A stretch of 20,416 nucleotides of DNA from a virus. The position numbers and the translations under genes are program-made. Within the stretch, counting starts at the first letter, position 1; each line of letters starts with the position of its first letter. The stretch covers positions 1-20,416 of IMG/VR virus record IMGVR_UViG_3300009537_000222. The stretch is one strand, 5' to 3'. The notes under the pieces are model-generated. The model ran no database searches, was not told where the DNA came from, and worked only from the letters and a program-made list of their open reading frames with translations. Shown one piece after another: positions 8,121 through 20,416 of this stretch.

Positions 8121-8630
8121 TTAACTCCTCAGTAAAGTATGATATCGGACTAAAAAACGTTCTCGTTTCAAATCAGGACTTGGGTCACTACCCACTTGAC
8201 GGGCTTCTAACCCATCAATATAAATCGCTTGATTAGCACTGCTACTATTCGGATAATCATCTAAAAATTCGGTTAAATTGACTGATAGAGCTTGATTAAC
8301 AGCGTCATTCAAGATACTCGCCATCCACCGCAATTCGGCAAGCCAATTGGCATTGCCCCGTGTGACCCAGGCGCTAATATCCATAAACGCATAATAACGC
8401 TGTCCCACATCAGCAGTTGAGACCCGTCGCCCCTGATAGAGGTCTTCGGTGCGAATGAATAAATGAGAAGCACTGAATTGTGGCGGTTGCAGGGGTTGCT
8501 CAGGCATATCGAAAATGACACGGTCGCCATCGAAGCCACTAAAAAAGGCAGGTGGTGAGTATGTCGCTATTTGCGTATTGAACCACGTGTTCAATGTGTT
8601 TTCAATATTGAAGACATTCGCAACATTCAT
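8121..8630 (-). CDS. Tail terminator protein
   Basis: This 169-residue protein begins with a helix containing FNIENTLNTWFNTQIA. A strand follows with FDGDRVIFDMPEQPLQPPQFSASHLFIR, a layout common in lambda gpU/SPP1 gp17-type tail terminators. A middle region follows with YYAFMDISAWVTRG and a helix WLAELRWMASILNDAVNQAL. The C-terminal strand RERFLVRYHTLLR is typical of the ring-forming beta sheet. Its ATG overlaps the stop of the gp10-like gene as ATGA (8627-8630). Position between the gp10-like and tube genes is the standard one. It would cap the tail tube and join the head connector. Confidence 0.78.
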   Translation of the reverse strand: MNVANVFNIENTLNTWFNTQIATYSPPAFFSGFDGDRVIFDMPEQPLQPPQFSASHLFIRTEDLYQGRRVSTADVGQRYYAFMDISAWVTRGNANWLAELRWMASILNDAVNQALSVNLTEFLDDYPNSSSANQAIYIDGLEARQVGSDPSPDLKRERFLVRYHTLLRS

Positions 8631-9007
8631 TTCCCAATATGCCCTTTCACATCTTTTACCATATTATTAACAAATAGCACAATCGCCTTTTCATGCTCTA
8701 CATCAATAAACCCCGCTGGGGCTTGTTGACTGTGCCCCTCATTCAAGGCTTCGATATACGGTAACTTCGAGCCTTGTGTGATGGCGAATCCATCGTCCTT
8801 AACATCCCATATCCCAGCTTCACCGGGAACACCCCAACTTGCCATCGCCGCGCCGGTATCGACGGGCATTCGTATTTTTATCATGCGCCGCGCTTGATTG
8901 GATGAGGCTAAGATATTCTCACGGGTTAAGCGATTCAACTCTCGGACATCATCACGCACCTTGTCCCGTAAGATACTCCACCCGTTGGCATCAAAATCAA
9001 TTTCCAT
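8627..9007 (-). CDS. HK97 gp10-like tail completion / head-tail joining protein
   Basis: This is a protein of 126 residues when started at the ATG at 9007; a GTG one codon upstream is possible. It matches the HK97 gp10-like family in its pattern: an N-terminal helix (WSILRDKVRDDVRELNRLTR), then RRMIKIRMPVDTGAAMASW, the family's 'P-V-D-T-G-x-L-x-x-S' type motif. ITQGSKLPYIEALNEGHSQQAP follows, the usual Y-x-x-x-x-E-x-G segment. The chosen start overlaps the methyltransferase stop as TGATG. Proteins of this family complete the tail or the head-tail joint. Normally they follow the head-closure gene directly. Here they are separated from it by the glycan cassette. Confidence 0.85.
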   Translation of the reverse strand: MEIDFDANGWSILRDKVRDDVRELNRLTRENILASSNQARRMIKIRMPVDTGAAMASWGVPGEAGIWDVKDDGFAITQGSKLPYIEALNEGHSQQAPAGFIDVEHEKAIVLFVNNMVKDVKGHIGK

Positions 9008-9690
9008 CACTCATCCTTGATACAAATTAAACGCACATAAAAATCTTGGATGACATTATTATACATCCGTTTCGCTTTCCAAAAGGCATCGGTGACTTGT
9101 CCATCCATAAAATAAGGCGGACACGCAAAATCGGGGGTCGGGCGGTATACATCCTGCACAACGATATCAAAATGTAATTGGTGATTATATTTGAATGGTG
9201 CTTCGGGATTCGGTTGCATACTATGGCGAAAGTGATATTCGTTCAAATAACGGGTATGACTAGGGTCACTGATAGCATCGCTCCCATGTCCATACGGACT
9301 GAGACAATGTACCATTGCCCCATGCGTTAAGACGCGGTGTAATTCGCTAAAAAAGGCATACCAGCCGTCTTGCATCTCTTGAAACCGTCTATGATCATCA
9401 GGGTGTACCATATGCGGGATATGCTCACAGACATGACTTAATAATGCTCCATTAAACGCATTATCATCAAAATCCCACGGATAGCGGAACAAATCAAGAC
9501 AGACATCAACCCCAACTTCGGGATTCTTATCGACGTTAACCCATGTAGGGTATTCAAAAATGGACTCGTCAACGAGTGCATGATGAATTGGACGGTCGGC
9601 AATTGGGAGCGGTAGAATGACGCGTCCACACCCTAAATTAAGCATCGGTTTCATCATCACCCGCCATTTATGAATAATCCAATAGGACAT
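9007..9690 (-). CDS. Class I SAM-dependent methyltransferase
   Basis: This 227-residue protein (or 216 if started at the internal ATG near 9657) carries a class I methyltransferase core. The SAM-binding loop is LNLGCG (17-22), with an acidic strand end WVNVDK (50-55, D54). Further on are CLDLFRYPW (D66) and the post-motif II segment LSHVCEHIPH (84-93), seen in Methyltransf_11/12-type enzymes. The helix WYAFFSELHRVLTHG and strand MVHCLSP follow, as usual. It is the last gene of the glycosyltransferase cassette, and its TGA overlaps the start of the gp10-like tail gene. The substrate cannot be read from the sequence. A sugar hydroxyl or other small molecule made by its neighbours is the reasonable inference; no DNA-methyltransferase motif (DPPY/NPPY) is seen. 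Confidence 0.82.
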   Translation of the reverse strand: MSYWIIHKWRVMMKPMLNLGCGRVILPLPIADRPIHHALVDESIFEYPTWVNVDKNPEVGVDVCLDLFRYPWDFDDNAFNGALLSHVCEHIPHMVHPDDHRRFQEMQDGWYAFFSELHRVLTHGAMVHCLSPYGHGSDAISDPSHTRYLNEYHFRHSMQPNPEAPFKYNHQLHFDIVVQDVYRPTPDFACPPYFMDGQVTDAFWKAKRMYNNVIQDFYVRLICIKDE

Positions 9691-9731
9691 TGCCCCGTTG
9701 ACAAAAAGTTACAATTTTGCTCGTCATATCG

Positions 9732-10610
9732 TTATACCTTCCGCTTGGTTTTAGACGATGGATAATGCTGCCTATACCACTCCACAATAACCTGTGCCCG
9801 GTTATCCCAGGTGTGGTCTGTCACCCACTCAAAGTCAGCGGCGAATGGTTCTTTGAGATAATGCTCAACAAAGGTCACGATGTCATCATGGCTTTCATAT
9901 TGAAATACTGAATTGGCAGTCATCGCTTTTAAGTCAGCACAAGGGTTACTCAAGACGACACACCCTAACGCTGCCCCTTCAAAAATGCGTTGATTTAAAT
10001 CACCTTTGATGGATACATTCAAGGCGATCCGCGTTTGGTGGTACACGGCGGCGTATTCATCATACAAAAGCCCTGTTAAAAAGCGCGTCTTGAAGCCTTC
10101 GGCAATTAACCGCTCAGCGATCTCGACCCGTTCTTCATACATCATCCCAATGAGCGATACATCAAATGTACGCTCAGCAATCGGAATGGGACTTGGGGTG
10201 AACGCTACCGGGTCATAACCACAAGGCAGCCACGTTGTATTATCCTGAGTCATATCCATAATTGACGGTTCGTTGTGTGCCAAAAAGTAATGCTCAATAC
10301 CAGCTTGGGTATAGTCCCTGACATGATTATCCATGCCATAAATAACATGCGGACTATCTGCATAATACGGGTGATGGAATGACCATTGTGATTCAAGGAT
10401 GATAATGAGGTCGGGCTTCCAACTCGGAATCGCTTCGGCAAGTGGCGCGTCAGGGTGATGTGACCAACGTCCAGAAACTTTCATCCCCCAAATTTGATCG
10501 CGGGTGCTATAGCCACAAGACTTGACATCATGCCCTAAGCGCATGAGTGCATCTTTCACATACCGTCCTGAACAGATGGGATAATGGATGTAAGCAAGTA
10601 AGATTCTCAT
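9732..10610 (-). CDS. CgeB-like glycosyltransferase
   Basis: This 292-residue protein has a GT-B layout. The N-terminal Rossmann-like half starts MRILLAYIHYP and includes KPDLIIILES and HVIYGMDNH. A linker then holds WLPCGYDP (about 127-134), and the C-terminal half carries FDVSLIGMMYEERVEIAERL. The signature LNQRIFEGAALGCVVLSN (205-222) matches the N-x-R-x-(F/E)E-x-x-A-x-G motif of the CgeB/spore-coat-associated glycosyltransferase group. It is slightly shorter than the roughly 350-residue members. ATGA (10607-10610) couples it to the small ORF upstream. It would transfer a nucleotide-activated sugar to an unknown acceptor in the cytoplasm. No signal peptide or membrane anchor is visible. 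Confidence 0.82.
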   Translation of the reverse strand: MRILLAYIHYPICSGRYVKDALMRLGHDVKSCGYSTRDQIWGMKVSGRWSHHPDAPLAEAIPSWKPDLIIILESQWSFHHPYYADSPHVIYGMDNHVRDYTQAGIEHYFLAHNEPSIMDMTQDNTTWLPCGYDPVAFTPSPIPIAERTFDVSLIGMMYEERVEIAERLIAEGFKTRFLTGLLYDEYAAVYHQTRIALNVSIKGDLNQRIFEGAALGCVVLSNPCADLKAMTANSVFQYESHDDIVTFVEHYLKEPFAADFEWVTDHTWDNRAQVIVEWYRQHYPSSKTKRKV

Positions 10611-10744
10611 TCGGTTTCATCCCTGACCGCAAATGTAGATATAGTGCTAGTAAAGCCCTTATCACGAAGTTTTTCATATGTCAAACCTTTGGGTATCAAA
10701 AAGGTAGTATGTTTTTCTGTTGCCTTTAGCTTGAATTTTTTCAT
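10607..10744 (-). CDS. Small 45-residue protein inside the glycosyltransferase cassette
   Basis: The frame runs from ATG at 10744 to TGA at 10607, 45 residues. It begins MKKFKLKATEKHTTFLIPKG and ends in AVRDETE. It is supported by a GAGAGG-type ribosome binding site about ten bases before the ATG. The start overlaps the GT2 stop as TAATG, and the stop overlaps the next start as ATGA. Both ends are thus joined to neighbours exactly as for the other operon genes. It is lysine-rich, without a membrane segment. I recognise no family. It could be a small accessory or chaperone subunit, or a coupling peptide that keeps ribosomes moving into the CgeB-like gene. Confidence 0.62.
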   Translation of the reverse strand: MKKFKLKATEKHTTFLIPKGLTYEKLRDKGFTSTISTFAVRDETE

Positions 10745-11511
10745 TACCAAAACCTCTCTGTCACGACCGTTATATCCGGCTCGATATACCCACTATCAAC
10801 CCATCGCTTTTTGAATTGATGGGCATTATAAGCAAAGTTGGGACTGCCCCCGGTGGTCGCCGTCACATGAATGAAGGTTGTTTTGGGTTGGTATAAAATA
10901 CGATAGCCCGATTGTACCACGCGCGCACACAAATCGATATCCTCCCAATACGACGGCTTGTAATACGTATCATCAAATCCACCCAATTCAATAAATAACT
11001 GACGACGAATCGCAAGTGCCGCGCCGGTGACAGCCGGTACGAACTCGGAGCGGTTGGCTAGCGGATAGGTATGGTCTGCATACCCAAGATAGCGGTGTGT
11101 CGGTTGACACTTGGCATCAAATTCAATCCCTGCATGTTGTAATTTACCATCAGGGAACATCAATTTAACGCCGACAATGCCAACTTCGGGATTCTCAAAC
11201 GCTTGTTCGAGCGGGATATCCCAATGTTCCGATAACCCATAAGAACCATAAATATCCTGATTGATAAAAAACAAGATATCTTGTGTGGCGCGTTTGGCAG
11301 CCGCATTACAATTCCCTGCGAAGCCGAGATTCACTGGATTCTGCTCCACACTTGCCGAACATAAAGGGATATACGCATCTAAGGGTTGCGACGGCGGATC
11401 GTCATCTTGCACTAAATATTGATGTTGTGTGAGTGCCAATATCTGCAAACTCGTCAAACAACGCATGATTGAGTGTAAGTCGCGGTAGGCAGGGATGATG
11501 ACTGATAACAT
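10744..11511 (-). CDS. GT2 family glycosyltransferase (rhamnosyltransferase-like)
   Basis: This is a GT-A enzyme of 255 residues. The N-terminus SVIIPAYRDLHSIMRCLTSL is the standard GT2 nucleotide-binding start. The segment QDDDPPSQ (35-42) corresponds to the first acidic motif. NLGFAGNCNAAAKRATQDILFFINQD (61-86) is the donor-binding helix and a variant of the D-x-D region (N-Q-D, where many relatives have N-P-D). GGFDDTYYKPSYWEDIDLCARV (177-198) is the catalytic-base region with the E-D pair. A His at about 215 follows. These are features of the WbbL/rhamnosyltransferase-like branch. TAATG overlap (11511) with the GT4 gene indicates coupled translation. Donor and acceptor cannot be predicted. 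Confidence 0.88.
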   Translation of the reverse strand: MLSVIIPAYRDLHSIMRCLTSLQILALTQHQYLVQDDDPPSQPLDAYIPLCSASVEQNPVNLGFAGNCNAAAKRATQDILFFINQDIYGSYGLSEHWDIPLEQAFENPEVGIVGVKLMFPDGKLQHAGIEFDAKCQPTHRYLGYADHTYPLANRSEFVPAVTGAALAIRRQLFIELGGFDDTYYKPSYWEDIDLCARVVQSGYRILYQPKTTFIHVTATTGGSPNFAYNAHQFKKRWVDSGYIEPDITVVTERFW

Positions 11512-12824
11512 TAGTCGCTCCCCTCACTGGCATTCACATGAATAATGGACGTTAATGTGCCCTGCGCTTCATTCTCGGCGGACAACTGTAAGGTCTTGCC
11601 GTTGGGGTTTTTCATAGGCGGTGGGGATGGTATCACGTCCGGCAGTACTTCAATCGCTGGTATTTGTGGCGGTCGCTCCCACTCCATCAAGGTTTCATAG
11701 ATGGCATCCGCTGCAGTATCCCACGTCTGTGACCGTGCCCAGGTTTTGCCATTCTGCGCTTTGGTAGCCCGTAACGCTGGGTTTTCATATAATAAGTTGA
11801 GCGCGTCAATAAACGCTGTAACATCGGGAATGGCATCCATCGCACCGCCCCAGGTGCTATATAATTGGCGGTCAATCGCTGGAATGAGCATCCCCCGTCC
11901 GTCGCCGACGATCTCCGTGCCACTACAATAGTCCATGGCGATACTGACAACCCCGCAGGCCATCGCCTCAACTAAAGGCAAACCGTAGCCTTCACGATGA
12001 GCGAGGACGGTATGTACGTCTAATAGGTTATAGCGGTCGGTTAAATCAGTTACGCCTTGACGGAAGCAATCTTCTCGAAAGATAAACTTACTCCGATCCC
12101 ATTGATTCTGCTCAATCAAGTGGGTTAAGTGCCAACCGACTGGACTGGTTTTATCCATATCTAAAATATAAAAGGCGTTCGGTTTATCCTTAGCAAAGGT
12201 ATTAAACCCTTCCATCATGAGGGGGATCGCTTTACGCCCCTGATTTTGTGCCATCGTGCCGACAATAAAAGCATCCTCGCCTAATAACATTTTGCGCCGT
12301 AGCTCTCGTTTGCGCTCTAGTGGATATTCATAAAAGATATTCGGATTAATTGCGGGTCGCACTAACCCCACTTTTACTCCGGCTTCACGGAAGGCATCAA
12401 CACCAAATTGACTGATTGTGAACGCCGCGTCAGCCTCTTTCATCAAATTAACCCACGCTGGTTCAATCGGCGCGCCATCAACCGGGGTAAGCATCACAAA
12501 CTTATGTTGTGACCAATCAATAGCGGCGTTGCGAACGGCTTCGCCGTAAGGGGCATCTTGAATAACAAAAACCACATCGGGCTTGGTGGCATATACCAAC
12601 TTTACAACATCTTCAACCCATTGTCCTGTCGCTCGCTTCACTTGTAAGGATGCCACATGGTAAGGCAGGCGTTGTAATTCCATGACTGCTGGCAACAAAC
12701 TATCATAAGCAAAACTCGCGGCAATAATTTGAATGCCCCGTTGAAATAAGCGAATGCCGAGATTATCCGCAATGCGTCCGAAACCGGTCGCTACGCCACT
12801 ATCTGATATCAAAAGGATATTCAT
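11511..12824 (-). CDS. GT4 family (GT-B fold) glycosyltransferase
   Basis: This is a protein of 437 residues. The N-terminal acceptor-binding half starts MNILLISDSGVATGFGRIA (Gly-rich loop). The C-terminal half begins near FIVGTMAQNQGRKAIPLMMEGF (186-207), containing the donor phosphate-binding Arg/Lys region. The hallmark E-x7-E motif is EGYGLPLVE (278-286), followed by AMACGVVSIAM and GTEIVGDGRGML. These define GT4/Glycos_transf_1 retaining enzymes. After about residue 382 a roughly 55-residue tail, Pro-rich then polar, extends beyond the usual domain end. TAGGAAG lies before the ATG. It is the first enzyme of the cassette, nine bases after a beta-rich protein gene. Confidence 0.9.
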   Translation of the reverse strand: MNILLISDSGVATGFGRIADNLGIRLFQRGIQIIAASFAYDSLLPAVMELQRLPYHVASLQVKRATGQWVEDVVKLVYATKPDVVFVIQDAPYGEAVRNAAIDWSQHKFVMLTPVDGAPIEPAWVNLMKEADAAFTISQFGVDAFREAGVKVGLVRPAINPNIFYEYPLERKRELRRKMLLGEDAFIVGTMAQNQGRKAIPLMMEGFNTFAKDKPNAFYILDMDKTSPVGWHLTHLIEQNQWDRSKFIFREDCFRQGVTDLTDRYNLLDVHTVLAHREGYGLPLVEAMACGVVSIAMDYCSGTEIVGDGRGMLIPAIDRQLYSTWGGAMDAIPDVTAFIDALNLLYENPALRATKAQNGKTWARSQTWDTAADAIYETLMEWERPPQIPAIEVLPDVIPSPPPMKNPNGKTLQLSAENEAQGTLTSIIHVNASEGSD

Positions 12825-12833
12825 AAGGTCTTC

Positions 12834-13220
12834 CTAACCATTTTGATTAATGCCCGCCCATGTCCATACACGGAAGGCTTCGATGTATAAATGTCCATCA
12901 TCAGTCGCAACTTGTCCACTGATGATATATGAGGACGCGGTTGTAAAATTCGCTTGTCCCGATAAGGTTAATTTACTAAAGGCTGACCCAGAACCTAGCG
13001 CGGAGGATGTGCCCCCATTCCATGCCGAAAAATTCAAAGCTGTCGCACTGGCAACGCCCGATAAACCGGTAGGAACATGCCATGCAAACGATGTAATAAT
13101 CTCATCGTCAATTAAGCGACCGGCCCAATCAATTTGTACAACACGCTTTTCAGCAGCGTGAAAGTCTCGAAACAGGTCGCCGCCAGCATTACGATTGGCT
13201 GTTCCCTCAGAGATACTCAT
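12834..13220 (-). CDS. Beta-rich protein resembling phage fiber-tail adaptor proteins
   Basis: This 128-residue protein has a central segment IDWAGRLIDDEIITSFAWHVPTGL followed by a strand-rich half ending TASSYIISGQVATDDGHLYIEAFRVWTW. This pattern (D-W...D-x-I-x-S-x-x-W-x-V-P-x-G-L, then repeated strands ending in an aromatic R-V-x-x strand) resembles small phage fiber-tail adaptor proteins, but I cannot confirm the family. It overlaps the gene upstream by one base (TAATG, 13220). It comes directly before the glycosyltransferase genes and is rich in Ser/Thr/Ala/Gly, so it is a candidate glycan acceptor. That last point is inference from position only. Confidence 0.55.
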   Translation of the reverse strand: MSISEGTANRNAGGDLFRDFHAAEKRVVQIDWAGRLIDDEIITSFAWHVPTGLSGVASATALNFSAWNGGTSSALGSGSAFSKLTLSGQANFTTASSYIISGQVATDDGHLYIEAFRVWTWAGINQNG

Positions 13221-13678
13221 TAGCGATCCTGTTCAATTGTGAAGCCGAAACGGAAGGGATCGTCATACGCCCCCGCCGTCAAATTCTCACGGGCTTCCAT
13301 CACGCCCCATACACTGCGCGTTCCGCCGGTACCATATACTGCGACACCGGGTGCTGTACTCTGAGCGACCATCTTTGAAGTCCCAGCACTCGCCCAGACC
13401 GTGAAATCAATGAATCCCAAATATTTATCATCATCCGCATTAGCGAGGACAAAGGTCGCGCCTGTGACATAGGCACTCGGCTGACTATGGAATAAATGCA
13501 AACGCATATCCGCATTGGCACTCGCATAGTCAATCAAGATGGCATTCTCAACCCGTCCACCATTCACCCCGATAGCAAGCGGAATCTCGAATCGGACGGA
13601 CATTGCATCTTTTGCCTCTACAGCACTGGCAGTCGCCACACCTAAAGCAGTTGCGTAGGTATGTATAAATTTAGTCAT
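13220..13678 (-). CDS. Beta-rich probable virion structural protein
   Basis: This 152-residue protein has an alanine-rich start (TALGVATASAVEAKDAMSVRF), then alternating strands such as AILIDYASANADMRLHLFHS, YLGFIDFTVWASAG and VWGVMEAR. It ends in a strand FRFGFTIEQD. The start directly abuts the stop of the head-closure gene. It shows no membrane segment or enzyme motif. I do not recognise a named family. Position among head-tail genes, and the co-directional coupling with the fiber-tail-adaptor-like gene, suggest a virion protein at the head-tail interface or an appendage. It may alternatively be a decoration protein. Confidence 0.6.
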   Translation of the reverse strand: MTKFIHTYATALGVATASAVEAKDAMSVRFEIPLAIGVNGGRVENAILIDYASANADMRLHLFHSQPSAYVTGATFVLANADDDKYLGFIDFTVWASAGTSKMVAQSTAPGVAVYGTGGTRSVWGVMEARENLTAGAYDDPFRFGFTIEQDR

Positions 13679-14047
13679 TTATTCACCTCGTTCTAATTTT
13701 ACTGTCCATTGTCCATTACTCCGACTGGGTTGCGGTTCGCTATCGACGCGATAGGTTGTACCATTCCAGATCAACTCATCACGCTTGCCGAATTGATAAT
13801 CGGATACGGCTTTTAATGATTGCACGATGACTTGGCCACCATCCGTCTGCATCTGCATATTATCCTGATACACCATATGCGCCGATACCCACGTTTCTCG
13901 ATAGTGCAAAGTTGCGCCAATACCGATGATACTATTGTCCGTCGTCGCGCTAACATACTCACGCCATAACACGGGATGACCTGCGTCACGCATGATCTGA
14001 GTCGCTTGTAAGGACAGCCGTCGGTGGTTCATGCCCCGATAACTCAT
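13679..14047 (-). CDS. Probable head-closure / head-tail stopper protein
   Basis: This 122-residue protein has an N-terminal helix (RLSLQATQIMRDAGHPVLWREY), then strands carrying IGIGATLHYRETWVS, QVIVQSLKAVSDYQFGKRDELIWNGTTYRV, and a closing strand QWTVKLER. A small protein whose C-terminal half has a '...G-D-x-(I/L)-x-x-x-G-x-x-Y-x-V...' strand pair is typical of head-closure proteins of the SPP1 gp16 / HK97 gp7-like kind. Its ATG overlaps the connector stop (ATGA, 14044-14047). Following a head-tail connector by order is the usual place for a stopper protein. Assignment is moderately secure from order, size and layout. Confidence 0.65.
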   Translation of the reverse strand: MSYRGMNHRRLSLQATQIMRDAGHPVLWREYVSATTDNSIIGIGATLHYRETWVSAHMVYQDNMQMQTDGGQVIVQSLKAVSDYQFGKRDELIWNGTTYRVDSEPQPSRSNGQWTVKLERGE

Positions 14048-15130: not shown

Positions 15131-16252
15131 TTAACTTACCGTTGCATCAGTTGTCGAATCGGAGTAAACCCACGCCCGATCATCGACAAATCCAAGTCCG
15201 AAAATGGCTTGAATCATATAGTTGATGGAATCCAATTTCATATACGAATCACTCGTTTCTGACATGGATTCTTGGAAGATATTCCATCCTAAAACATTCT
15301 GACGGATGAAACTCATACGGGTTGAGTCACACAGTGCCCATTGAAAACTCGCACCGAACCACGGTGAGAATATCACGCGCCGAATTTGACCTTGAAACGG
15401 GTTACTTGTACCCGTCCCAATGGCTTCGACGGTCGTCGCGCCATGTGTGCGCTCCAATTGAGCACTGGTGAGCAGTTGCAGTACCGGAATTTCAAGCCGA
15501 GTCCCCGCGATGATGGTATCCGCATTGAATCCGAGATATGCACCGGACTTACGATCTTTGGCTGTCCCGATAATCGACTTGGCGGTACGTAAACTATCCG
15601 CATTAAACGTCAACGTTTGTTGGTTTGCACCAATGTCATTATCGTTGGTCGTCGAATTGCGAGTGTAGTTAGCGGTGTTGGTGATCGCGTCATACGCCGT
15701 TTGTTCATCGGTGAGAACAGCCGCCAGACCCATTTCTTGGGCAGTCTGCTTAACTTTGCCGATTTGGTCATAGCGAATCATATCACCCGTGATTGGCACG
15801 ATCATACTCCGTTGTTGATTGACAATGGTCGTGCCACCTTCAAACGCTTGACGCGCTTGGGGTCGCGGTGCGCCCGATTGATAAACTGGAATGACACCGA
15901 TTGCCGCGTCTCGGATATATTCTTCCTGTGGTTTATTAGATGCCATCTCACTCGTAAATGCCGTGTAGGTACGTTGGGCATTTGCCATCGCACTAAAGGC
16001 GACGCGCTTCAAGTCTGTTCGTAGGATATTTGTGAAGTCTGGATTGTTCAGGAAGGCTTCATGCAACGTCTGCCGAACAATATCTCCACCGGGTAGGTAA
16101 CGCACACGCAAGGCTTCAAGAAAATCGAAGTCAACATCCGGTGCGCGATTAAAGCTGATCGTCTCACGATTGATGATGCGCGCATTGTTTTCGCTATCAT
16201 AATCGACTTCGACAACCGTTGTTGGACTCTTGGGATTAGGCGTTAGCATCAT
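15131..16252 (-). CDS. Major capsid protein (HK97 fold)
   Basis: This protein of 373 residues follows the protease and decoration genes, the normal place for the major capsid. The ATG at 16252 has GAGG about ten bases upstream; a second ATG follows at once. An N-terminal region with a helix FLEALRVRYLPGGDIVRQTLHEAF precedes a segment rich in A and Q. NQQRSMIVPITGDMIRYDQI looks like the start of the HK97 E-loop to P-domain region, and VKQTAQEMGLAAVLTDEQTAYDAI like the long spine helix. NADSLRTAKSIIGTAKDRKSG and YLGFNADTIIAG are strands and helix of the A-domain; the C-terminus ends in SYMKLDSINYMIQAIFGLGFVDDRAWVYSD. Residue-level domain boundaries are by eye. Confidence 0.85.
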   Translation of the reverse strand: MMLTPNPKSPTTVVEVDYDSENNARIINRETISFNRAPDVDFDFLEALRVRYLPGGDIVRQTLHEAFLNNPDFTNILRTDLKRVAFSAMANAQRTYTAFTSEMASNKPQEEYIRDAAIGVIPVYQSGAPRPQARQAFEGGTTIVNQQRSMIVPITGDMIRYDQIGKVKQTAQEMGLAAVLTDEQTAYDAITNTANYTRNSTTNDNDIGANQQTLTFNADSLRTAKSIIGTAKDRKSGAYLGFNADTIIAGTRLEIPVLQLLTSAQLERTHGATTVEAIGTGTSNPFQGQIRRVIFSPWFGASFQWALCDSTRMSFIRQNVLGWNIFQESMSETSDSYMKLDSINYMIQAIFGLGFVDDRAWVYSDSTTDATVS

Positions 16253-17830: not shown

Positions 17831-18919
17831 TTATTCCCTCGTACTCGTAACGGTCTTGGGGTCATCAAAAAAGTCTTTTAACAAAAAGGCGATACCGAGT
17901 GCATCCAGCCACCCCTCATAATCGCTAGGGGGGGGTGCATCATCCGGGATAACATCATCCGCCTGAAAAAACCGCTCATCAACGACCGGGATTAAACTAC
18001 AACGACAATTAAAATGGGTATCAACGACTGGTATCAATTGGTCAGAATCGCCTTGTTTCCAAACTTGCCCTTCAAGTGCCTCGCACTCAGGACATACCCG
18101 ACTATCTCTCGCTGTTAACCACTGTACGGCTGATACCACTGCTTGATTGTCACGATAACTATCGAGTGCCGCTTGATTATTGGCATGGATAAAATAACTG
18201 CGCGTCATGGTTTGTACGCGGTTAAAATTAGCTCGGACATCGGCGATACCTGTCCGACGGCGGTCAGTCGTCACACCTAAAATATCAGCGACTCCCCCCA
18301 TTAATTCACGAATCGTTTCGCCGTCTCCCATACCACGATTTAAACGACGGCGTATTTTGGGGATGATTTCGGTTAAATGATCGGCGTATTGTTCGCGCCA
18401 TTCTACCCCTAGCGTATCGTAAATGATCTGCGATGACACATCTTCTAGAATTGGATTGCGTAACACCAATTGACTTGCAGTTGCGCTATCCAGACGAGAA
18501 ATGGTTATGTTCTCATTGGGGAGCATCGAATCTAGCATCCATAATTTGCCGTAAAAAGCGACCATGTAACTTAACACCACTCGCTCAAAACTATACCGCG
18601 CTACATCTTGCGCTAAGCGATTGAGATGCCCCACGGTGACTGATAGCATCACCCGTCGCCATTGTAACCCCGTCGCATCATTGGCAAGGTTACGGATACC
18701 GAATCGGTCGGCAAGGTCTTCAGCTTCGGCACGAATGGCGCGGAACGTCGCTTGGTACATCCGCATGGTTTCGATAATGGTGCGATCTTCTAAGGCAAAT
18801 AAGCGGCGACGGATATAGGTTTCCGTATAACGTTGTGTCAAATTCGGGACGCGCTCGGGATCAACGTATTGCATCCCCTTGACCGTTAATACCCGCTCTA
18901 CTTGACGAGGGGTAGGCAT
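17831..18919 (-). CDS. MuF-type minor head protein
   Basis: This 362-residue protein has mainly helical N-terminal domains. The C-terminal region carries the MuF pattern: NRVQTMTRSYFIHANNQAALDSY (233-255), then WLTARDSRVCPECEALEGQVW (267-287) and DTHFNCRCSLIPV (300-312). The C276/C279 pair and H302, C305 and C307 match the usual zinc- or fold-stabilising residues of Phage_Mu_F. The start overlaps the portal stop as TAATG (18919), so it is translated after the portal. MuF proteins are coded next to portals, lie inside the head at the portal, and some have toxin domains at the C-terminus. Here the part after residue 320 is a short acidic/Pro-rich tail, with no toxin domain. Confidence 0.88.
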   Translation of the reverse strand: MPTPRQVERVLTVKGMQYVDPERVPNLTQRYTETYIRRRLFALEDRTIIETMRMYQATFRAIRAEAEDLADRFGIRNLANDATGLQWRRVMLSVTVGHLNRLAQDVARYSFERVVLSYMVAFYGKLWMLDSMLPNENITISRLDSATASQLVLRNPILEDVSSQIIYDTLGVEWREQYADHLTEIIPKIRRRLNRGMGDGETIRELMGGVADILGVTTDRRRTGIADVRANFNRVQTMTRSYFIHANNQAALDSYRDNQAVVSAVQWLTARDSRVCPECEALEGQVWKQGDSDQLIPVVDTHFNCRCSLIPVVDERFFQADDVIPDDAPPPSDYEGWLDALGIAFLLKDFFDDPKTVTSTRE

Positions 18920-20416
18920 TATAACCTATCCTCTGTTTCGGCTTTGGTCTCCAACTCATCATCACCCTCTAAACTATCAGGGCGCATCACTGGCGGACGT
19001 GGTAAGTTCCCACTGTCCATTTGCGATAAGACTTGCTCACGCTCGTCTATCAACTCGCGCTCCACTTTGTCTGGGTCAGTCCCCAATTGCAGGCGGGCTT
19101 CACGGGTTGAAATAAAGTTATTAATGACTTGTTTCTCCAACGCACTCGTCAAATTCAATAAGTCAGTTTCTATCAAGGCTTCATAGCGGACTTCAAACGC
19201 CGCTTCGGCTAATATCACGTCGCCGGTCGCATCACCTGCACCATTGAATTCCGGGACATAGAAATCGAGACGACCGGTTTCAACGGCGTATCGTATCACC
19301 TTTTTGAACATCGGTTTCCATAATTCCATAATCAATATCCGTTGCCAACCTTCAAATCGTGCGAGTGCTGGTAATTGCTGACGACTGGCACTCGCCAGAT
19401 TGACATTATGCCCGTCCGATAACATATATTCTGGGATTCCGAAACCTTTGGCGATTTGTAATAAGAGTTGCCGTCCATCATCCACTGCACTTGGTGCATT
19501 CGGTGTGGCTTGCATCGCTTCAACACCGACGCTCGCATGTTCTATCGCAATACTGCCCGGTTTGGGGGGCGTTGCCCAACGACGAACAACGTCTGACATA
19601 GCAACAGGGCTATTGGTATCAACCGTTACGCGCCATAGAATAACCGACAACCAATAATTAATACGGGCGCGATTCTCTAACCAATCTTTGCGGGCTTTCA
19701 ACCAGGGCAGAATTGCATACAATTGGCTTCGTCCTCGCACTTCATAGGCATGATTATTAACGGCGACAAATAATATCTCATCCGCATCAATTTGCACGCG
19801 TTCATTACGCTGTTCACTATTGGGTGTGTCATACTCATCTTGATGGAATTGAAATTGATAACTCAAAATATTGCGATAATTACCCAATTCAGTCGTGATG
19901 GACTCAAGTTCCCATGGCCGCAAGGGAAAGATGGCAGTTCGTAAACCGTCTTGATGCCATTGTAACACCAACTCACCATCGACTAGCAAATCAGCCATCG
20001 CCTGCCGTTCATATTCTCGAATACGATTTTGACTATCCTCAATGAACTCATTCAAGATGAATTCAACATCTGGATTCATCGTATTGAGATGAAAACCCTC
20101 GCCAACCACAAAACTCGCAATGGTATCAACTCCAACATTGGCATCTGGATTCCGGCGATAAGCGGCGTGGGTTTGCTCGAGGATATAACGGCGAGTCGCA
20201 ATATTCCATTCCTCAAGCGGATTCTCTGTAATCGGCACGAATGGCATATCCACTTTGTAAGGCGCGTCAAACTGAAACCGGACAGCTTGTGCATACGATT
20301 CTCTCAAGTAGGTTTCCATCATGCCCGTCTGTTGCAATTCTACTCGCAAGGTTTCGGGGAGCAAAATCGGCAAGGCATATAATAAGCCATCGACTACCGC
20401 CGCCGGGTCCTTCTCG
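18919..20416 (-). CDS. Portal protein (5' end beyond the window)
   Basis: The frame is open to the right edge. A TTG at 20373 is the first start-type codon within the window, giving 484 residues, but the 14 codons before it (ending ...VVDGLLYA) are also open and look protein-like. The true start may lie outside. Portal features are an N-terminal segment with RNPDANVGVDTIASFVVGEG, the helix FIEDSQNRIREYERQAMADLLVDGELVLQW (joining clip/wing), and a strand set with DADEILFVAVNNHAYEVRGRSQL. Then comes the long stem helix and crown (LASASRQQLPALARFEGWQRILIMELWKPMF), and the C-terminus KQVINNFISTREARLQLGTDPDKVERELI. It makes the ring through which DNA enters the head. The MuF gene overlaps it by one base. 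Confidence 0.9.
   Translation of the reverse strand, partial: EKDPAAVVDGLLYALPILLPETLRVELQQTGMMETYLRESYAQAVRFQFDAPYKVDMPFVPITENPLEEWNIATRRYILEQTHAAYRRNPDANVGVDTIASFVVGEGFHLNTMNPDVEFILNEFIEDSQNRIREYERQAMADLLVDGELVLQWHQDGLRTAIFPLRPWELESITTELGNYRNILSYQFQFHQDEYDTPNSEQRNERVQIDADEILFVAVNNHAYEVRGRSQLYAILPWLKARKDWLENRARINYWLSVILWRVTVDTNSPVAMSDVVRRWATPPKPGSIAIEHASVGVEAMQATPNAPSAVDDGRQLLLQIAKGFGIPEYMLSDGHNVNLASASRQQLPALARFEGWQRILIMELWKPMFKKVIRYAVETGRLDFYVPEFNGAGDATGDVILAEAAFEVRYEALIETDLLNLTSALEKQVINNFISTREARLQLGTDPDKVERELIDEREQVLSQMDSGNLPRPPVMRPDSLEGDDELETKAETEDRL

Follow-up and report, generated by a model that had tools for sequence, protein, structure and literature searches.

Organization of the Cassette

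The viral DNA analyzed here (IMG/VR record IMGVR_UViG_3300009537_000222; 20,416 nucleotides, hereafter the window) raises the question of what a group of sugar-transferring and methylating enzymes does between the head and tail genes of a phage. The initial annotation had described three glycosyltransferases (GTs), a small ORF and a class I methyltransferase (MT) on one strand of this interval, and gene coordinates, Pfam profiles and, for the MT, an AlphaFold model bear this out. Read from 12824 to 9007 on the minus strand, the genes encode a GT4-family (GT-B) glycosyltransferase (11511..12824; 437 aa), a GT2-family (GT-A) glycosyltransferase (10744..11511; 255 aa), the small ORF (10607..10750; 47 aa, with an alternative start at an ATG at 10744), a CgeB-like GT-B glycosyltransferase (9732..10610; 292 aa) and a class I SAM-dependent MT (9007..9690; 227 aa, a later ATG possibly being the true start). 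The small ORF is low in GC (0.354) and was not seen as a conserved cassette member in the relatives compared.

The cassette is flanked by head-closure and neck (tail-completion) genes, all on the same strand. Its right border is a neck1/tail-completion gene (8627..9010; phrog_169, 5e-12), a border conserved in relatives. The left border is a probable head-closure gene, Hc1 (13679..14047), whose matches to phrog_501/82 (E ~0.02) and PF05354 (0.0038) lie below cut-offs and identify it weakly; the gene is syntenic across relatives. Between Hc1 and GT4 lies a slot whose content varies between relatives, occupied here by b128 (12834..13220), with a weak, below-cut-off match to the podophage fibre-tail adaptor Gp77 (PF23148, E 0.0046), and b152 (13220..13678), which has no assigned family, a 35% homologue in the nearest long relative and no detected homologue in most others. 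Portal, MuF, protease and major capsid protein (MCP) genes lie further upstream of Hc1.

GT4 follows b128 after 9 bases and overlaps GT2 by 1 base, 41 bases separate the CgeB-like gene from the MT, and 4-base overlaps join the start of the CgeB-like gene to the small ORF and the MT to the neck gene. These spacings uphold the description of the genes as mostly joined by overlaps of one to four bases. Since the genes share a strand with the virion genes and are almost gap-free, late co-expression with them is implied. The cassette proteins were also said to have no membrane anchor, and none was found by hydropathy (maximum 19-residue Kyte-Doolittle mean, 1.47). PADLOC returned no defence match.

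Enzyme Families

Profile searches of each protein, proposed in the initial annotation, placed the three GTs above their Pfam cut-offs and the MT below. GT4 belongs to its family by both profile (PF00534, 2.7e-10, 40.5 bits against a cut-off of 26.4; phrog_2170, 4e-23) and motif, the two glutamates of its E-X7-E signature (EGYGLPLVE) being invariant in 12 aligned relatives, and its profile matched the structure of the chlorovirus GT B736L (3oy2, E 2e-11). GT2 (PF00535, 3.4e-8, 34 bits against 23.3) carries the DxD-like and ED residues of its family, with D36/D37, NQD and ED invariant in the relatives' alignment; its profile matched polypeptide GalNAc-transferases over nearly the full length (E 8e-5). 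The CgeB-like protein (PF13524, 1.3e-13, 51.5 bits against 25) has numerous invariant columns across 10 relatives, and its AlphaFold model (m01ecf5682069, pLDDT 86) has a GT-B fold. The top PDB match of this model was a methylmannose polysaccharide mannosyltransferase (7qsg, E 4e-10), and the fold search also returned the T4 glucosyltransferases AGT and BGT (1y6f, 1y8z, 1bgu). For the MT, PF08241 gave 15.3 bits against a cut-off of 21.2 (E 0.032), PF08241 being a broad family to which other models may be better suited. Its LGCG motif (the motif I glycine loop) is invariant in 10 relatives, and its AlphaFold model has the Rossmann fold of a class I MT, with 201 PDB matches at E<=0.001.

Conservation of the Cassette across an Uncultured Lineage

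Synteny, the second check suggested at the outset, proved strong. One uncultured phage lineage is represented by 35 distinct IMG/VR contigs, all metagenomic and mostly incomplete. GT4 occupies the same site in 34 of them, the 35th stopping before the site, and in all 18 capsid-retrieved contigs that extend to it. The full order GT4-GT2-CgeB-MT is retained in most contigs, and the arrangement is kept at ~30-60% identity over dozens of them, so that GT genes lie within the virion operon at a conserved position, as expected of a virion-glycosylation cassette. GT4 is the most constant member: contigs without GT2 or CgeB (L061, L069, L071, L029) still have GT4 with an MT or other GTs, L071 combining a GT4-like protein with a GT17 and L029 carrying a CgeB-MT fusion. 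Pairwise distances of the cassette proteins correlated with those of the capsid (GT4, r=0.70; GT2, 0.67; CgeB, 0.60; MT, 0.62) to a degree comparable with the structural genes (r=0.44-0.81). Similarly, identity to the nearest long relative was 44-54% for cassette genes, 48% for the capsid and 45% for the neck protein. On sequence evidence, conservation across dozens of contigs places the arrangement beyond chance and marks the cassette as a lineage-fixed block rather than stray cargo.

Scanning genomes for GT4 recovered one phage-like contig (L037), inside an Anaerolineae MAG and 97.6% identical to IMG/VR contig L013. The remaining matches were weak, came without the lineage's virion genes and were set aside as probable host GT4s. 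When the capsid, CgeB-like and MT proteins were searched singly against the phage collection, none gave a match, and GT2 gave distant ones, mainly to unannotated gut contigs; a mixed alignment of GT4 proteins proved too heterogeneous for use in the viral scan.

Comparison with Known Systems

The initial annotation had held that phage GT or conversion genes usually sit in separate modules. This should be softened, since GT/MT blocks occur in virion operons of the Corndog cluster of mycobacteriophages and of Synechococcus phage S-CBS4, Pontimonas phage phiPsal1 and Microcystis phage Mae-JY09. In Corndog, an O-methyltransferase and GTs are encoded between portal and protease, and the proteins are present in infected cells and absent from virions; capsid peptides are under-represented, and capsid modification was proposed (PMC4351075). 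The Corndog cluster (cluster O), compared here through Firecracker and Dylan, resembles the present cassette in having four co-directional, near-overlapping genes, one MT plus GTs, in the virion operon (Firecracker gp33-gp36). However, that block sits between portal and protease rather than between head-closure and neck genes, and the Firecracker proteins gave no match to the GT4, CgeB or MT profiles, one GT matching GT2 weakly (7e-6). S-CBS4, phiPsal1 and Mae-JY09 encode a homologous GT4 (profile E 1e-29 to 1e-32) together with a GT2 and/or MT, inside or beside the head genes. They differ in position, in giving no CgeB-like match and in their MT (28-30% in alignment with the MT here), and the Mae-JY09 block has an extra NDP-sugar epimerase. 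S-EIVl, whose GT4 relative lies apart from annotated virion genes, was left out of the comparison.

Chlorovirus PBCV-1 uses mostly soluble virus-encoded GTs and methyltransferases (A064R, A061L, A111/114R) to make an O-methylated glycan on its major capsid protein (PMC9614988). The GT4 profile matches chlorovirus B736L, and PBCV-1 differs in its unrelated capsid and host, its N-linked glycan and the early expression of its genes. Among mycobacteriophages, PMC12619734 (citing Freeman 2023) describes Che8-type glycans on the C-termini of capsid and tail-tube subunits, and the Che8-related F1 phage Maravista has its GT genes near the genome 3' end, outside the virion operon (PMC11256854).

Proposed Function and Candidate Acceptors

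We consider it probable that the cassette is a virion-glycosylation pathway within the structural operon, in which soluble enzymes would equip one of the virion proteins with a methylated glycan. The earlier proposal that the cassette acts late with virion proteins and places a glycan on a head or tail protein gains partial support from the arrangement, the predicted solubility of the enzymes, fixation across the lineage and the precedents above. GT4, GT2 and the CgeB-like GT would be produced late alongside head and tail proteins and would draw on host nucleotide sugars, assembling a short glycan on a virion protein during assembly. Neither a thymidylate-synthase-type hydroxymethylase nor a sugar epimerase was found in 12 long relatives, and host sugar donors are therefore likely used. 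In the presumed order of steps, GT4 would be the enzyme most likely to recognize the acceptor and make the first transfer, and the remaining GTs would elongate. The MT would then cap or decorate the glycan, probably by sugar O-methylation, at a position that, like the identity of the sugars, we infer. The presumptive benefit to the phage would be shielding, stability or adhesion.

The most likely acceptor is the MCP (15131..16252, minus strand; PF25209, 1.2e-13, residues 68-362), at a Ser/Thr-rich C-terminal tail (YSDSTTDATVS) past the PF25209 domain that would be a candidate for O-linkage. The tail is conserved in relatives (last 12 residues, 46% S/T) and is the most S/T-dense conserved window among 8 virion families (0.55). 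The tail is absent from 19 homologous MCPs of prophages in whose surroundings no cassette gene was detected, S/T there being 7%. This is a single phylogenetic contrast rather than several independent ones, and the tail could instead be structural. Since the MCPs of S-CBS4, phiPsal1, Mae-JY09 and the Corndog-type phage Firecracker have no S/T-rich ends, the acceptor would differ in those phages. A fuller version, in which this uncultured lineage, some of whose phages may infect Chloroflexota, has a dedicated cytosolic pathway as a fixed core element of the virion operon and puts a methylated oligosaccharide on a lineage-specific C-terminal S/T sequon (approximately YS-S-STTAPTV) of every MCP copy, is possible but tentative.

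A variant that overlaps with our own reading, in which the glycan sits on a protein of the tail or neck (such as the tail tube, the slot proteins or Ig-like extensions) instead of the capsid, seems rather unlikely. The cassette does adjoin neck and tail genes, tail-tube subunits of mycobacteriophages are also glycosylated (PMC12619734), and the tail149 C-terminus carries a conserved GPT-S-GY motif; however, that C-terminus is 24% S/T and the others 4-16%. The slot proteins were rejected as acceptors because they are variable or absent while GT4 persists.

It is improbable that the enzymes instead remodel envelope glycans of the host late in infection (O-antigen, capsule or teichoic glycan), for instance to exclude superinfecting phages or to keep progeny from binding debris. 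Enzymes of the GT2 and GT4 families typically make surface glycans, and SAR11 myophage glycosyltransferases have been so interpreted (PMC7029224), but the block encodes no protein with a membrane anchor and neither a flippase nor a lipid-linked GtrB-like glucosyltransferase of the kind that marks Gtr-type O-antigen conversion. Moreover, its site between two neck genes is fixed even at deep divergence, and the inferred late expression with virion genes would leave scant time for exclusion.

It is very improbable that the GTs glycosylate phage DNA bases, as the T4 alpha- and beta-GTs do, with the MT taking part in base hypermodification. The CgeB-like fold does resemble AGT and BGT, but the top fold matches are sugar or polysaccharide GTs, and the block adjoins neck rather than replication genes. 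The hydroxymethylase search gave 0 of 12 in long relatives (33-67 kb, contigs that may be incomplete) while detecting its positive controls; a Tet/JBP search gave no match, but neither did its control, and that absence therefore carries no weight. Finally, although glycosyltransferases are frequent phage cargo and PHROGs classes the GT4 family under morons, neutral insertion by chance is scarcely credible, being contradicted by lineage-wide conservation of position, order, catalytic residues and co-inheritance.

Virion glycosylation by the cassette would belong to a kind of system already known, GT/MT blocks in virion operons, of which this is a further case. In the papers cited here, the virion glycosylation traced in tailed phages is that of mycobacteriophages; here it would extend, as read from genes, to a large uncultured lineage. 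Since the GT-MT block is kept as firmly as the capsid genes, sugar-coating may be argued to be a core virion trait rather than an accessory one. If this is true, the lineage would be a source of cytosolic protein-glycosylation enzymes together with a short candidate acceptor sequence.

Results and Discussion

The 20,416-base window comes from an IMG/VR virus record, and its minus strand forms a virion operon, with genes for the portal (20373-18919), MuF (18919-17831), the protease (17828-16797), a protein without assigned function (16827-16255), and the major capsid protein (MCP; 16252-15131). The TTG start listed for 16827-16255 gives a 31-base overlap with the protease gene, and the real start is probably further downstream. 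After MCP come connector-like and head-closure-like genes, two unknown proteins, and then the cassette, i.e., the glycosyltransferases (GTs) GT4 (12824-11511), GT2 (11511-10744), and a CgeB-like protein (10610-9732), and a methyltransferase (MT; 9690-9007), all on the minus strand, together with a non-conserved ORF of 47 aa. Next on the same strand lie neck1/tail completion (9010-8627), tail genes, and a gene resembling a tape measure. Two adjoining small tail proteins (8116-7257; 149 and 132 aa), tail-tube-like by position, are paired lineage-wide. The sole long plus-strand gene candidate (172-1023), at the contig end, encodes a 283-aa protein that contains hydrophobic segments and matches no family. 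On recheck, the coordinates, strand, motifs, and spacing that the initial annotation gave for a glycosyltransferase-methyltransferase cassette inside the virion structural operon were all correct. The three GTs scored above Pfam cut-offs and MT below; the AlphaFold model of MT is a class I methyltransferase, and the CgeB-like protein is confidently of GT-B fold. GC contents of the four enzymes (0.44-0.49) are similar to those of adjoining virion genes.

The virion-operon glycan cassette is real and lineage-wide. Profiles of the CgeB-like protein, MCP, and GT4 retrieved 11, 19, and 33 contigs, respectively, for a total of 35 distinct contigs, several of them near-duplicates. Gene maps showed a single order, in which the portal is followed by MuF, the protease, a small head protein, MCP, a connector, head closure, and a variable slot; past the slot, GT4-GT2-CgeB-MT leads into neck1, a tail terminator, a pair of tail-tube-like paralogues, and often a tape measure that can be recognised. 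GT4 occupied the same site in 34 of the 35, the last (L022) stopping short of it. The fairer figure is 18/18 among MCP-profile contigs that extend to the site, since the enzymes play no part in that search, even though the profile itself was built mostly from contigs retrieved via the CgeB-like protein. The complete four-gene set occurs in 22 contigs; the rest are cut by a contig end or are variants that retain GT and MT functions. Among these, L029 carries a probable natural CgeB-like GT/MT-domain fusion (8370-10370; 666 aa; PF13524, 4.5e-11; PF08241, 0.0038), L061 is without GT2, L069 combines GT4 with a second GT4-like gene and two MTs, and L071 has GT4, GT2, GT4-like, GT17, and MT.

In L004, the nearest long relative, a MuF-like head protein (L004:2051-4207) contains an intein (PF14890, 3.6e-10), and ORFs that are HNH endonuclease-like by eye (one tested, no Pfam match) interrupt the cassette (12125-12874) and precede the tape measure (17866-19032). 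The lengthened head-closure ORF of another contig (L015:4456-6129; 557 aa) includes a bacterial Ig-like domain (PF19078, 2e-12), possibly a neck appendage. IMG/VR contig L013 shares 97.6% identity with L037, a 5.8-kb contig from an Anaerolineae MAG, and this hints weakly at Chloroflexota as hosts. A search for phage integrases in 12 long relatives found none, a result compatible with a lytic life style without proving it.

Pairwise distances of cassette proteins correlated with those of MCP (r 0.60-0.70, compared with 0.44-0.81 for other virion proteins; all p about 0.0005 by permutation), and catalytic residues were invariant among aligned relatives. These sequence comparisons argue for a virion-linked function, and such co-inheritance and invariance rule out a recent moron. 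We propose that soluble, late-expressed enzymes would draw on host nucleotide sugars to synthesise a short glycan attached to a virion protein, with first transfer probably by GT4, the most constant member, elongation by GT2 and CgeB, and methylation by MT. An epimerase was sought in the 12 long relatives and none was found. Action on the host surface (conversion) is less likely, considering the fixed position and the lack of anchors or flippase. DNA glucosylation, compatible with the GT-B fold taken alone, is unlikely, since the same 12 relatives yielded no TS-type hydroxymethylase.

Modification of a virion protein has parallels. In Corndog-cluster mycobacteriophages, an O-methyltransferase and GTs sit between portal and protease; these enzymes turned up in infected cells and were not detected in virions, and the paper suggested that the capsid is modified (PMC4351075). 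The block of Firecracker, a Corndog-type phage, has the same layout, but the lineage profiles identify none of its enzymes as homologues, apart from one weak GT2 match. In mycobacteriophages, virion glycans are described at the C-terminal ends of capsid and tail-tube subunits (Freeman et al., 2023, as cited in PMC12619734). Synechococcus phage S-CBS4, Pontimonas phage phiPsal1, and Microcystis phage Mae-JY09 carry a homologous GT4 inside or adjoining head genes; the Mae-JY09 virion-operon GT block also includes an NDP-sugar epimerase (L008:11591-12508; PF01370, 6e-32). Chloroviruses glycosylate and O-methylate their own capsid by virus-encoded enzymes (PMC9614988), and the lineage GT4 profile matched chlorovirus B736L.

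Throughout the lineage, the MCP C-terminus is a tail of the type YYSSSTTAPTV, with Ser/Thr making up 46% of the last 12 residues vs. 14% elsewhere. Among conserved windows of eight virion families, this tail had the highest Ser/Thr density (0.55; next, 0.40). Homologous chromosomal-prophage MCPs, mostly protease-fused and mostly from Chloroflexota genomes, served as controls; they end near a DYRG-Y motif without the tail (7% Ser/Thr), and no cassette genes were detected around them in fetched stretches of up to 18 kb. The Ser/Thr-rich tail is a candidate glycan acceptor, a lead rather than proof, since lineage vs. prophage is one phylogenetic contrast. No such tail is present on the MCPs of comparator phages whose cassettes are related or analogous; therefore, the acceptor may differ from lineage to lineage. 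The cassette belongs to a kind already known, to which a specific acceptor hypothesis is now added.
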